Assembly (NCBI GenBank): GCA_020849765.1
Contig: JADLAY010000043.1
Coordinates: 1-64,000 of the forward strand
DNA: 64,000 bases
Direction of reading: 5' to 3'
From: Anaerolineae bacterium
GTDB taxonomy: Bacteria > Chloroflexota > Anaerolineae > Aggregatilineales > Phototrophicaceae
Part shown: positions 4,991-9,260 of the stretch, one piece after another
Numbering within the stretch: position 1 is the stretch's first letter
Layout: each line of letters opens with the position of its first letter
Program-made: the position numbers and the translations under genes
The notes under the pieces: generated by a model
What the model was told of the DNA's origin: nothing
Databases searched by the model: none
What the model saw: the letters and a program-made list of their open reading frames with translations, nothing else

Positions 4991-5404
4991 TCAGTTTTGC
5001 GAGGATGTACCTTCGCTCTTGGAGGGGGTATCCGAGGGTTTGGCGGGCTGCTGCCAGGACAGAATTCGCATGATCAACTCGCGCGGGTTGAACGGCTTGC
5101 TCAGGTAACCATCCGCGCTCAGCACGACGCCCTGCGCCGTGTAATCTTCCAGGCGAGATGCTGTCAGCATCAAGACCGGGATGTCGCCGGTCGCCGGATC
5201 ATTCTTGAGCTTGTCGCACACCTCGAACCCGGTCATACCTGGCATATTGACGTCGAGGATCACCAGATCAGGCTTGCGATCCTGCACCAGTGACAGCGCC
5301 TCCGGGCCGTCAAACGCGCTGACCACCTCGTGGCCAATACTCTCGATGATATCGATCAAGAGCTGGCGGTTGTCCGCGTTGTCGTCGGCGATCAGGACGA
5401 GCAT
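4991..5404 (-). CDS. Single-domain response regulator (second receiver)
   Basis: This is a stand-alone receiver domain of about 137 residues with no output domain. The acidic pair (LIADDNADN), the phospho-acceptor Asp (VILDVNMPGMTG), the Thr switch (LMLTAS) and the Lys (LSKPFNP) are all present, so it should be phosphorylatable. A Pro/Ser-rich tail follows. The start is placed at MLVLIADDN because GGGAG lies upstream and receivers begin at this point; an ATG at 5420-5422, overlapping the upstream stop, is the alternative. It is the last gene of a kinase-receiver-receiver set. Confidence 0.85.
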   Translation of the reverse strand: MLVLIADDNADNRQLLIDIIESIGHEVVSAFDGPEALSLVQDRKPDLVILDVNMPGMTGFEVCDKLKNDPATGDIPVLMLTASRLEDYTAQGVVLSADGYLSKPFNPRELIMRILSWQQPAKPSDTPSKSEGTSSQN

Positions 5405-5422
5405 GAGCGCGCAGTCTCCCAT

Positions 5423-5794
5423 CTAACCCATGTATCGAGCGAGCTTTCCGGCTAGCTCTCTGAAATTGATGGGCTTGGAAACGTAATCATCGCACCCGGC
5501 GGCCAGCGCGCGTTCTTTATCGCCCAGCATGGCATGCGCCGTCAGGGCAATGATCGGGATGTTCGCGAGCGCCTCGTTCTCCTTGATCTTCTTGGCCGTG
5601 GTCCAACCATCCATCAGCGGCAGCGACAGATCGAGCAATATCAATGCAGGCTTCTCTTTATCCAGGATCTCCAGCGCCTCTTCGCCATTCGACGCGACCA
5701 GTGACGCATACTGCAAGGATTGCAGCAGATCGAGGATCAAGGTCATATTGTCCTTGTTGTCTTCGACGACCAGAATTTGCTTCTGTTCTTGCAT
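5423..5794 (-). CDS. Single-domain response regulator (first receiver)
   Basis: A 123-residue CheY-like receiver with intact residues: VVEDNKDN for metal binding, LILLDLSLPLMDG with the phospho-acceptor Asp, IALTAHA, and VSKPINF. The gene starts at MQEQKQILVV, with AAGAGAG upstream on the minus strand. Its sequence resembles DivK/CpdR-like single receivers that relay phosphate or bind partner proteins. The next receiver gene follows at once. The kinase gene upstream lacks the phospho-donating His, so the source of phosphate for this receiver is uncertain. Confidence 0.87.
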   Translation of the reverse strand: MQEQKQILVVEDNKDNMTLILDLLQSLQYASLVASNGEEALEILDKEKPALILLDLSLPLMDGWTTAKKIKENEALANIPIIALTAHAMLGDKERALAAGCDDYVSKPINFRELAGKLARYMG

Positions 5795-5899
5795 GACGAT
5801 GCTCTCTTGCGTGCGCGAGCGCTGCGAGGATAGCACGCAATATCTTCGCACTGTAACGCAATTGTAACGCAGATCTTTAGAGATTGAAGATAAGCAAGC

Positions 5900-6925
5900 T
5901 CAAGCTTGCGGATTATCGGTCACACGTGGCACCTGAACCGTCTTGGCGCGCGCGGGCACATAGGCGCGCAGCGCCACAAAGAATGTGCTGCCCTGCTTCT
6001 CCACGCTCTTGACCCAGATGACGCCCTGCTGCATTTCCAGCAGGCGCTTGACGATCGCCAGTCCCAGTCCCAGCCCGCGCTCGTCATGCGTTTGATCGCG
6101 ATGCACGCGGTAGAATGTGTCGAAGATGCTTGCCTGATCCTGTGAGGCAATGCCGATGCCGGTATCGCGCACGGACAGCACCACCCAGGCGCCATCGCGC
6201 AGCCAGCCGATGGTCGGCAGCTCGACCTTATCCGCGACACCGTTCTTGACCTGCACACCGCTGGCGGCAAGCGTCACACTGCCCTTCTGGGTGAAGCGCA
6301 GCGCATTGATCAGCAGTTGCGACAAGACCTGCTCGACGCGTTGGGCATCGCCCAGGATCGGGATGATGTCCGGCTCGACCTCGTGGAGCAGTTCGACCTC
6401 GTCGCTCGTTTTTTCCTGCACGTCGGCGATCACGCGCTCGACCACAGGCAGCACCTCGACCGGTTGGATGTTGAGCGTCACCGCGCCGTAATCGAGCCGG
6501 TGCAGTTCGAGCATGTCGGTGATATAGGTCAGCAGGTCGTTGCCGCTGCGCTGGACGGCGGTGATGCGTTCGCGCGCCTGATCGCTGAGGGCGCCATATG
6601 TGCCATTCAGTAGCAGATCGCTGTAGCCGATGATCACGTTGAGCGGCGTGCGCACGTAGTAGCCCATATTGTCGAAGAATGTCCCGCGCGTGCGCCGGAC
6701 TTCCGTCAGATCTTGCTTGAGCGATTCGACTTGCCTGCGTTCGCTGGTGAGGTCACTGCGCACGCCAAGCAGCTCACGGCGCATGCGCTCGACCTCCGCC
6801 TTGAGATCGGCCGCCGCATCCGTGTCGGCCTCGAGGCGCCGCAGACGCATCGCCTGAAAGACGTTGTAAGCGACGGATACGACCAGGGCGATCACCGAGA
6901 TCAACGCAATATCGCCGGGTTGCAT
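5900..6925 (-). CDS. Membrane-anchored histidine-kinase-like protein lacking the phospho-acceptor His
   Basis: The 341-residue protein has one N-terminal membrane helix (residues 5-23), a coiled coil (about 30-80), a HisKA-type dimerisation helix and a HATPase domain. The H-box, normally NMSHELRTPL, reads NMGYYVRTPL at residues 86-95. The His is Tyr89 (TAC at 6659-6661) and the following Glu is Tyr90. The ATP-binding boxes look intact: N box LLINALRFT around Asn207, G1 DTGIGI at 254-259, F box IFDTFYRV, and G2 GLGLGL at 284-289. It may bind ATP but cannot autophosphorylate in the usual way. DivL of Caulobacter is a studied protein with the same His-to-Tyr change. Two receiver genes follow on the same strand. 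Confidence 0.88.
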   Translation of the reverse strand: MQPGDIALISVIALVVSVAYNVFQAMRLRRLEADTDAAADLKAEVERMRRELLGVRSDLTSERRQVESLKQDLTEVRRTRGTFFDNMGYYVRTPLNVIIGYSDLLLNGTYGALSDQARERITAVQRSGNDLLTYITDMLELHRLDYGAVTLNIQPVEVLPVVERVIADVQEKTSDEVELLHEVEPDIIPILGDAQRVEQVLSQLLINALRFTQKGSVTLAASGVQVKNGVADKVELPTIGWLRDGAWVVLSVRDTGIGIASQDQASIFDTFYRVHRDQTHDERGLGLGLAIVKRLLEMQQGVIWVKSVEKQGSTFFVALRAYVPARAKTVQVPRVTDNPQA

Positions 6926-6989
6926 GAGAAAGATCTATCTCCTCAGGGATGACCGCGCGCGATGGCGCGGCTCGCCATTGACTGGCGTG

Positions 6990-7277
6990 CTAGGGCTTCA
7001 ACCGCTGGCTGTTGTTGACGTCGGCATTCTCGTGCGCAGATGAACGCGCAGCCGCCCGCATGTCTTCGGGCGCTGCCATCAATTGTCCCGTGATCTGCTC
7101 AAGATGGTTCAGCGCGTCGTAATCGAACTCCTGATACTGGCAGATATCGCACGTCCAGGAATCCATATTGGGAATGCTGAGGGGCATCCCGCGATAGAGG
7201 GTCACGAACGCGGCCTGGCTGCGATGCAGATGCCCTATCTGACACCGAGGGCAAGAGTACGTGCTTTTGTCTGTCAT
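6990..7277 (-). CDS. YgiT-type zinc-finger protein
   Basis: A 95-residue protein with two CxxC pairs (CPRCQIG near residue 9 and CDICQYQ near residue 43), as in the zinc ribbon of YgiT/MqsA antitoxins. The part after the ribbon is a short helix (FDYDALNHLEQITGQL) and an Ala-rich tail, with no recognisable HTH domain. AGAGGTG precedes the ATG. Such isolated ribbons are common in Chloroflexota and usually have no assigned function. It follows the two signal peptidase genes on the same strand, separated by 18 bp, so it may be co-transcribed with them. Confidence 0.7.
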   Translation of the reverse strand: MTDKSTYSCPRCQIGHLHRSQAAFVTLYRGMPLSIPNMDSWTCDICQYQEFDYDALNHLEQITGQLMAAPEDMRAAARSSAHENADVNNSQRLKP

Positions 7278-7295
7278 GCTGCACCTCTTCTACAA

Positions 7296-7868
7296 TCATG
7301 GAAAGCGAAACCGCGTGATCACACCCCAATCCGAGGGGGGCCAGTAACGCACCAAAGCCTCACCGACCAGATTCGAACGCGGAACCGGCCCGAAGTAACG
7401 TGAATCGTTGCTGTTGTTTCGGTTATCGCCCATCAAGAAAAATTCATCCGCGCCCAGTGCCCATTCTGCATCTCGGCAGCGGTTTTGCTGGCATTCCTCT
7501 TTAATATACGGCTCGTCGAGGATGATGCCATCGACGAACACCTGCCCGTCACGAATCGTGACCGTCTCGCCGGGCAGCCCGATCAGGCGCTTGATCAGCG
7601 ACGGATCGTCGTAGCGCGCGCCAGGCGTATTGAAGACGACGATGTCCCCGCGCTGGGGCTCGCCCACCAGGTACGGGACCCGGCTCACGAGCACGTACTG
7701 CCCCGTATAAAAGCTGGGCTGCATGCTCGGCCCATCAATGAAATAACGGGTTGTCGCCAGGTTGACCAGGGTATAGACAAACACGATCAGGAGCGCTGTA
7801 TCCAGCAGCTCATGCAACCATCCTGCACGGCGCAATCGCGGGCGCGCAGGTGGAGGATCGATGACCAT
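7296..7868 (-). CDS. lepB: Signal peptidase I
   Basis: A type I signal peptidase of 190 residues that removes Sec and Tat signal peptides outside the membrane. One N-terminal membrane helix (LLDTALLIVFVYTLVNLA) anchors it. The catalytic Ser is in DGPSMQPS and the catalytic Lys in SLIKRLIGLPGE. The GDNRNNSNDSR motif of box E is intact. The start at 7866-7868 (MVIDPPPARPRL) has AAGG upstream; an upstream extension would overlap the preceding gene. It is a tandem paralogue of the next gene and is 17 bp from it. Confidence 0.93.
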   Translation of the reverse strand: MVIDPPPARPRLRRAGWLHELLDTALLIVFVYTLVNLATTRYFIDGPSMQPSFYTGQYVLVSRVPYLVGEPQRGDIVVFNTPGARYDDPSLIKRLIGLPGETVTIRDGQVFVDGIILDEPYIKEECQQNRCRDAEWALGADEFFLMGDNRNNSNDSRYFGPVPRSNLVGEALVRYWPPSDWGVITRFRFP

Positions 7869-7885
7869 ATCGTCAGCCTTCAGGG

Positions 7886-8485
7886 TTAGTCTGCACCAAT
7901 GCGCGTGACCAGCCCCCAGTCCGATGGCGGCCAATAGCGCAGGAGTGCCTCGCCAACGAGATACTGTCTGGACACAGCGCCAAAACGCCGCGAGTCGCTG
8001 CTGTGATTCCGGTTATCGCCCATCACGAAGAACTCGTCCGCTCCCAGCGTCGGGTAGACGCGGTCGGGGCAACTGGAGCGATTGCACGGTTCGTTGATGT
8101 AGGGCTCGTCAATCGGCTCGCCGTTGATGTAGACTTGCTGGTCGCGGATCTCAATCGTATCGCCCGGCACGCCAATCACGCGCTTGATGTAGTCCTCTTC
8201 CGGGTTGCCCGGATAGTGAAAGACGACGATATCGCCGCGTGTGGGTTCGCCCAGCATGTAATTCAACCGGCTGACGATGACGAACTGACCGGTCGCGAAG
8301 TTGGGCTGCATACTCGGCCCCTCGACGATGAAGCGCGCGCTGAGCAGGTTCACCAGAGTGTAAATTGCCGCCACCAACACGACCGTCTCGATGAGTTCGC
8401 GCAGGAGATTCATAAACCCCTGATTCTTGAGTCTGGGTCGAGCGAAGCTCTCAAATGTGGTGCTTTCAGCGGGCGATTGTTGCAC
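7886..8485 (-). CDS. lepB: Signal peptidase I, tandem paralogue
   Basis: This second type I signal peptidase (199 residues) has the catalytic Ser in EGPSMQPN, the Lys in DYIKRVIGVPGD and box E GDNRNHSSDSR. The start is the GTG at 8483-8485. A downstream ATG (MNLLREL) has a better ribosome site, but the residues before it (ARPRL) match the N-terminus of the neighbouring paralogue, which favours the longer form. Both copies insert a Cys pair (EPCNRSSCP here, EECQQNRCR next door) that could form a disulfide. Duplication followed by specialisation for different substrates is the likely reason for the pair. Confidence 0.92.
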   Translation of the reverse strand: MQQSPAESTTFESFARPRLKNQGFMNLLRELIETVVLVAAIYTLVNLLSARFIVEGPSMQPNFATGQFVIVSRLNYMLGEPTRGDIVVFHYPGNPEEDYIKRVIGVPGDTIEIRDQQVYINGEPIDEPYINEPCNRSSCPDRVYPTLGADEFFVMGDNRNHSSDSRRFGAVSRQYLVGEALLRYWPPSDWGLVTRIGAD

Positions 8486-8633: not shown

Positions 8634-9260
8634 TTATTCGGCCAGCGCTTCTTCAATCTTGCGCTTCAATTCGGTGTCGCCATCGCCGTTGTTCTTGCGC
8701 TTGGCTGGTGCAGTGTACGGCAGCTCATGACGAGCATTGCGCGCCCGCCACAGCATGAAGCCACCGCCGAGGATCATGAAGCCTGCGATCACGACGTTCA
8801 CGGTTCTGCCATCGACGCCGCGGAACAGGATCAGCTCGAAGAAGGTGCCAAATGCTGCCAGCAGCGCCACGCCAATCACCACCAGGTTGCGCCCGGACTT
8901 GACGCTGTTCGCATTGTCCGTGCGACTGCCGTAGTAGATCAGCGCCAACCCGACGAAAACCGGATACAGCGCCCAGACGTAGGCCCAGCTTTCCCAGTAG
9001 TTGGTCAGATTCTGAACAAACAGGATCAGGCCGGTGCCGGTGACGATGGTGCCAGGGAAGACGAGCGATGCGGCTCGCTTATCGCCGGAAACGGCGATCG
9101 CCAGCATGAACAAACCCGGAAGGATGACGAAGAACGGCCAGCCGCCTTCGAAGACGAACAGATCGATGTTGAAAACGTTGCTGATGAGGAACACCAGACC
9201 CGTCGCGATGATCGCGACTGCGATGGCCTGACGCCCGCGTTCACTTGTCCTGCTATTCAT
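8634..9260 (-). CDS. Multipass membrane protein, LiaF/DUF5668-like transmembrane region
   Basis: The 208-residue protein has five or six hydrophobic helices (about residues 12-32, 42-58, 68-85, 92-110, 124-145 and 152-170) and a charged cytoplasmic tail ending KRKIEEALAE. The spacing of paired helices with GGWPFF and ALYPVF resembles the LiaI/LiaF-like transmembrane module of cell-envelope stress proteins. The C-terminal LiaF domain itself is missing. It stands alone between a terminator and the amine oxidase gene. The function is unknown. Confidence 0.65.
   Translation of the reverse strand: MNSRTSERGRQAIAVAIIATGLVFLISNVFNIDLFVFEGGWPFFVILPGLFMLAIAVSGDKRAASLVFPGTIVTGTGLILFVQNLTNYWESWAYVWALYPVFVGLALIYYGSRTDNANSVKSGRNLVVIGVALLAAFGTFFELILFRGVDGRTVNVVIAGFMILGGGFMLWRARNARHELPYTAPAKRKNNGDGDTELKRKIEEALAE

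Follow-up and report, generated by a model that had tools for sequence, protein, structure and literature searches.

The window, by which we mean the whole 64,000-nucleotide stretch of Anaerolineae DNA analysed here, contains a gene for a histidine-kinase-like protein (HK) with tyrosine in the place of the phospho-accepting histidine, next to genes for two receivers (RR1 and RR2), and the question raised by this locus is what such a protein can still do and how it came to lose its histidine. The H box of the translated frame reads FFDNMG-Y89-Y90-V-R-T-P-L-N, where Tyr89 stands for the phospho-accepting His and Tyr90 for the acidic residue that follows it. When the coding strand was re-read, the TAC codons that a sequence-only reading had reported for the His and Glu positions were found to be correctly placed (Table 1). 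The four ATP-binding boxes described as intact were all present (N box N207-A, G1 D254-TGIGI, F box F268/F271 and G2 GLGLGL), as were the Asp, Thr and Lys of both receivers (D74/T104/K126 in RR1 and D57/T87/K109 in RR2). The protein was matched by the Pfam families HisKA (43 bits, cut-off 26.9) and HATPase_c (79.6 bits, cut-off 26.4), and in the AlphaFold model (pLDDT 80.5) the DHp and CA folds are normal and the ATP lid is poorly defined. The residue at His+4, the phosphatase residue of HisKA proteins, is Thr93. A homologue of histidine kinases that lacks catalytic features and has been retained by selection, the window HK qualifies as a pseudo-histidine kinase.

Table 1. Features of the locus, given as positions in the window.
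Feature	Position	Strand	Remarks
Pseudo-histidine kinase, 341 aa	5900..6925	-	ORF, Pfam and structure model; residues 1-78 N-terminal membrane helix and coiled coil, 79-147 HisKA/DHp, 191-322 HATPase_c
Two TAC codons	6656..6661	-	Tyr89 (phospho-His position) 6659-6661; Tyr90 (acidic position) 6656-6658
RR1, DivK-like single-domain receiver	5423..5794	-	D, T and K intact
RR2, single-domain receiver	4991..5422	-	without C-terminal class III nucleotide cyclase domain
Small zinc-ribbon-like protein	6990..7277	-	paired CxxC cysteines; conserved neighbour upstream of HK
Signal peptidase I (Peptidase_S26)	7296..7934	-	conserved neighbour
Second signal peptidase I	7886..8485	-	conserved neighbour; called by similarity to the first

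The start of RR1 was set at the ATG at 5794 from the homologue in G013, another species of the genus; the longest ORF begins with a GTG at 5851.

Loss of the histidine is uncommon. Among 92 HisKA domains found in the window's genome, 89 were examined (88 fetched and the window's own), and 86/89 have His and 3/89 do not; in a 2025 survey His-less domains made up 0.9% of HisKA domains (722/76,471; PMC12632262). The two other His-less proteins of this genome are one with VQEFRTPM (L292:966-4307, plus strand; His to Gln), which has its ATP boxes and a very long coiled coil, and one with SEELRRPL (L293:2152-3849, minus strand; His to Glu), in which the G1 and G2 boxes are degraded.

The search for orthologues covered 98 genomes from the family and 154 from the order, and the loci were then read. 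The conserved gene order is signal peptidase(s), small zinc-ribbon protein, HK, DivK-like receiver RR1 and RR2, but not every locus has an HK in it: at 11 loci RR1 comes immediately after the zinc-ribbon gene, and in two genomes of the window's own genus (G001 and G006) RR1 is present and the HK is absent from the site. The D/D/T/K residues of RR1 are intact in 72/73 loci of the order, whether an HK is adjacent or not. Given that RR1 is intact at loci without the HK, another kinase must serve RR1, if RR1 is phosphorylated. To this extent the earlier proposal of a sensor controlling receivers served by another kinase holds, in that such a kinase is needed if the receivers are used, whereas the label "sensor" does not, since the protein lacks the multi-helix membrane domain that its orthologues have and retains just a single predicted membrane helix and a coiled coil.

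Several other features were seen in these loci. The tandem pair of signal peptidase I genes (7296-8485) is conserved beside the receiver pair across much of the family. Upstream of it lies a gene for a LiaF/LiaI-like membrane protein (8634-9260, minus strand; about 27-29 bits, barely over the cut-offs), which among the loci read is common to the window and G013 only; elsewhere a divergent receiver gene is found there. At seven loci of genus g13 (L073, L095, L096, L104, L106, L109 and L111) the slot between the zinc-ribbon gene and RR1 holds other genes, one for a protein of 212 aa that no Pfam family matched and one for an EutN/CcmL shell protein of roughly 103 aa (88.9 bits, one tested). The 212-aa protein presumably resembles a microcompartment shell trimer, and shell genes within a two-component gene order were unexpected. 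In G003 an opposite-strand ORF of 798 codons (L055:3407-5803, plus strand) is inserted between HK and RR1.

The orthologues outside the genus indicate the state from which the window HK departed. In five genomes of other genera (G016, G017, G021, G085 and G089) the HK has about 505-525 aa, a canonical SHELRTPLN and an N-terminal multi-helix membrane domain, a term used because the match of this domain to HisKA_7TM (22.1 bits) lies below the cut-off of 28.6; a sixth orthologue (G020) is shorter, 379 aa, and its H box is canonical. In other genera RR2 carries, besides its receiver domain, a class III nucleotide cyclase domain (PF00211; 86-96 bits in three proteins tested). We infer that the ancestral operon encoded a membrane HK, a DivK-like receiver and a receiver-class III nucleotide cyclase. 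Operons of this type (e.g. in G017, G016 and G021) have the gene order and neighbours of the window locus and an HK core 36-45% identical to that of the window, but they have the canonical SHELRTPLN, the multi-helix membrane domain and the cyclase output, all three of which have been lost in the window. CyaC may be an analogue of this operon in a single protein.

The eight HKs of the window's genus form one clade (support 99/96 in a tree made without the H-box columns), and they preserve steps between these two states. The acidic residue is gone in 8/8 (Y, Y, F, K, R, R, R, R), which requires one change on the tree, and His is kept in 3/8 (G003, G005 and G004, all His-Arg) and replaced in 5/8 by Tyr (window, G013 and G012), Gln (G002) or Val (G008). 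Thus the syntenic orthologues pass from His-Glu to His-Arg and then to Gln-Lys, Val-Arg or Tyr-Tyr, a series in which, on the tree, the genus lost the acidic residue before His. Just outside the clade, G034 has Leu at the His position and keeps Glu. The best tree has four His changes, of which the tests support at least two: descent of all six His-less forms from one loss was rejected (AU, p 0.007), while a single loss within the genus was not (p 0.24), four being the count on the best tree and not a proven number.

Tyrosine itself was found in the assemblies of three species with the same gene order, and the HKs of the two other species are about 68-70% and 52% identical to that of the window. 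A sequencing error as the source of Tyr was rejected because the residue is common to the three species. On the same ground, and with the gene under purifying selection (see below), the Tyr is no recent mutation of this strain only, the outcome named beforehand as speaking against the proposal, and the view of a non-phosphorylating HK is supported. The combination of Tyr with the kinase-receiver-receiver order, proposed as a check, is conserved in these three species; the other HKs of the genus have His, Gln or Val. The ATP-binding boxes are kept in 7/8 of the genus HKs. The exception is G004 (L057, HK 6919-8454), which has His-Arg but has lost the N and G1 boxes as well as RR1, so that the receiver-cyclase follows the HK directly.

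The multi-helix membrane domain has been lost in the window, G013 and G012, leaving one N-terminal membrane helix and a coiled coil, and the RR2 cyclase domain has been lost in the window and G013 and is present in every other syntenic RR2 orthologue read. On this distribution the window's lineage lost the membrane domain first and the cyclase domain afterwards. The possibility that the cyclase had been moved or frameshifted just downstream was rejected, as no remnant of it was found downstream in the window or G013 beyond a 40-residue match with an E value of 0.27. Two further class III cyclases are encoded next to each other on contig C69 of the window's genome.

So many losses might mean that the HK is a decaying relic without present function. 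The stepwise disappearance of membrane domain, acidic residue, His and RR2 cyclase would fit such decay, as would the absence of the HK from the locus in G001 and G006, but the conservation of the gene makes it unlikely. The HK reading frame is open in all species, and dN/dS between the window and G013 is about 0.16 (a rough value, with dS 1.4 near or at saturation). Between these two species identity is highest in DHp helix 1 (27/28, i.e. 96%, against about 68-70% overall), whereas the CA domain reaches 76% and the N-terminal part 64%. Arg92 (+3), Thr93 (+4), Leu95 and Asn96 (+7) are invariant in 15/15 syntenic orthologues.

If the protein is functional, it is almost certainly not as a kinase. 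Autophosphorylation on Tyr or on another residue might be considered with the ATP-binding boxes intact and with the title of PDB entry 4Q20 having once labelled DivL a tyrosine kinase, but it is highly improbable: the acidic residue is gone too, the position is occupied by Gln, Val or Leu in other members, and DivL itself does not autophosphorylate (PMC4211667). In four HisKA proteins, CrdS and HK853 among them, kinase activity requires the acidic residue and phosphatase activity does not, the Thr/Asn at His+4 is required for phosphatase activity alone, and CrdS-H371A, which lacks the histidine, keeps most of its phosphatase activity and still dephosphorylates its receiver (PMC3510030). By this rule, kinase activity would have ended when the genus lost its acidic residue, which freed His to change, while the residue needed for phosphatase activity stayed; loss of the acidic residue with retention of Thr favours a phosphatase-only protein (K-minus P-plus). 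The window HK resembles in this respect the K-minus P-plus mutants CrdS-E372A and HK853-E261A, in which the acidic residue is lost and Thr/Asn at +4 kept; these are, however, laboratory mutants that still have His, whereas the change in the window HK is natural and fixed in the genus, and His is lost too.

Our best explanation, held tentatively and at somewhat less than even odds, is therefore that the window HK is a phosphatase acting on RR1 or RR2 after their phosphorylation by a kinase encoded elsewhere. The protein still has the helix pair for dimerisation and receiver docking, together with a domain of the ATP-binding type. The ancestor of the genus HKs probably ceased to be a kinase when the acidic residue beside His was replaced, and His would thereafter have been free to drift, becoming Tyr in the window's lineage. 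Docking to RR1, and perhaps also to RR2, has most likely persisted, and the retained Thr93 would serve to remove phosphate from a receiver presumably phosphorylated by an outside kinase. Several observations speak against this explanation. PleC-H610A loses both activities (PMC3510030), and a phosphatase role as the general function of pseudo-histidine kinases is at odds with how His loss is distributed over HisKA and HisKA_3 (PMC12632262). DivL has Arg(+3) and Thr(+4) yet no phosphatase activity (PMC4211667), so the retained Thr is no proof of a phosphatase. Finally, the losses in G004 (N and G1 boxes, RR1) and the absence of the HK in G001 and G006 may mean that the lineage is sliding towards loss.

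DivL of Caulobacter, which has neither kinase nor phosphatase activity and stabilises DivK~P (PMC4211667), offers a possible though less probable model, in which the DHp helix of the window HK would bind RR1~P and alter the state of a third protein, either another kinase or the HK's own membrane and coiled-coil part. The His-to-Tyr change is identical in the two HisKA-type DHp domains, both of which have Arg(+3) and Thr(+4), and Arg92 corresponds to DivL R553, which is required for DivK binding (PMC4211667). The candidate partner of the window HK is a DivK-like single-domain receiver, with DivK the closest solved relative of RR1 (93.6 bits); DivL (4Q20) is among the profile matches of the HK (165.7 bits) and its fold matches (32-33% identity), and the loss of the HK's own signal input also speaks for this model. 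GacS, HK853 and RetS, on the other hand, match the window HK as well or better (the nearest solved relatives in the fold search include GacS, HK853, WalK, RetS and DivL), and the locus identifies no third partner. The acidic residue, lost in the window HK, is kept as Glu in DivL, and the receivers of the window HK, a protein from Chloroflexota, are encoded next door. Pfam detected no PAS domain in the window HK, whose N-terminal 78 residues are a membrane helix and coiled coil, and the PAS domains of DivL are thought to set its phospho-specific binding (PMC4211667); nor was ChpT (PF10090), a component of the CckA-ChpT-CtrA pathway, found in the window's genome, the Caulobacter control being positive. 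Membership of the DivL family was rejected on these two grounds, and the comparison with DivL drawn earlier stands for the His-to-Tyr change itself but as a look-alike and not as the same system. Since the syntenic orthologues of the window HK have His, its Tyr arose independently of that of DivL. Phosphatase-only action is slightly favoured over such a reading of RR1~P, although sequence alone cannot separate the two.

It is also conceivable, but unlikely, that the window HK is active only when paired with a different HK, in a heterodimer of which it is the subunit that recruits receivers or binds ATP. Most members have intact ATP-binding boxes, and the genome offers about 90 HisKA domains as possible partners, but the locus names none of them and the boxes are lost in G004. 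A precedent is the ChrS pseudokinase of Corynebacterium glutamicum, which heterodimerises and acts with HrrS (PMC9491836): this too is a kinase-dead HK affecting a receiver phosphorylated by another HK, but it arose by a laboratory-evolved frameshift in the CA domain, whereas the change in the window HK lies in the DHp domain.

Pseudo-histidine kinases are an already recognised class. What is new here is the series of graded intermediates at one syntenic locus, which shows an order of loss: the genus HKs share the loss of the acidic residue, which preceded that of His, and the losses of the membrane domain and of the cyclase output are coupled. Possibly, although we hold this with considerable doubt, the HK of the whole Chloroflexota genus only reads or resets a DivK-like receiver that once belonged to a receiver-cyclase system, having lost in turn its acidic residue, its His (several times, to different residues), its membrane sensor and the cyclase, so that the Tyr lineage would have arrived independently, for a second time, at the DivL-DivK arrangement. 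The routes from kinase to pseudokinase are usually guessed from their end points, whereas here syntenic orthologues show the intermediates with the receivers still intact. With such a series it can be clearly tested whether the loss of the acidic residue was what first ended kinase activity, and what effect on its receiver a dead kinase retains.
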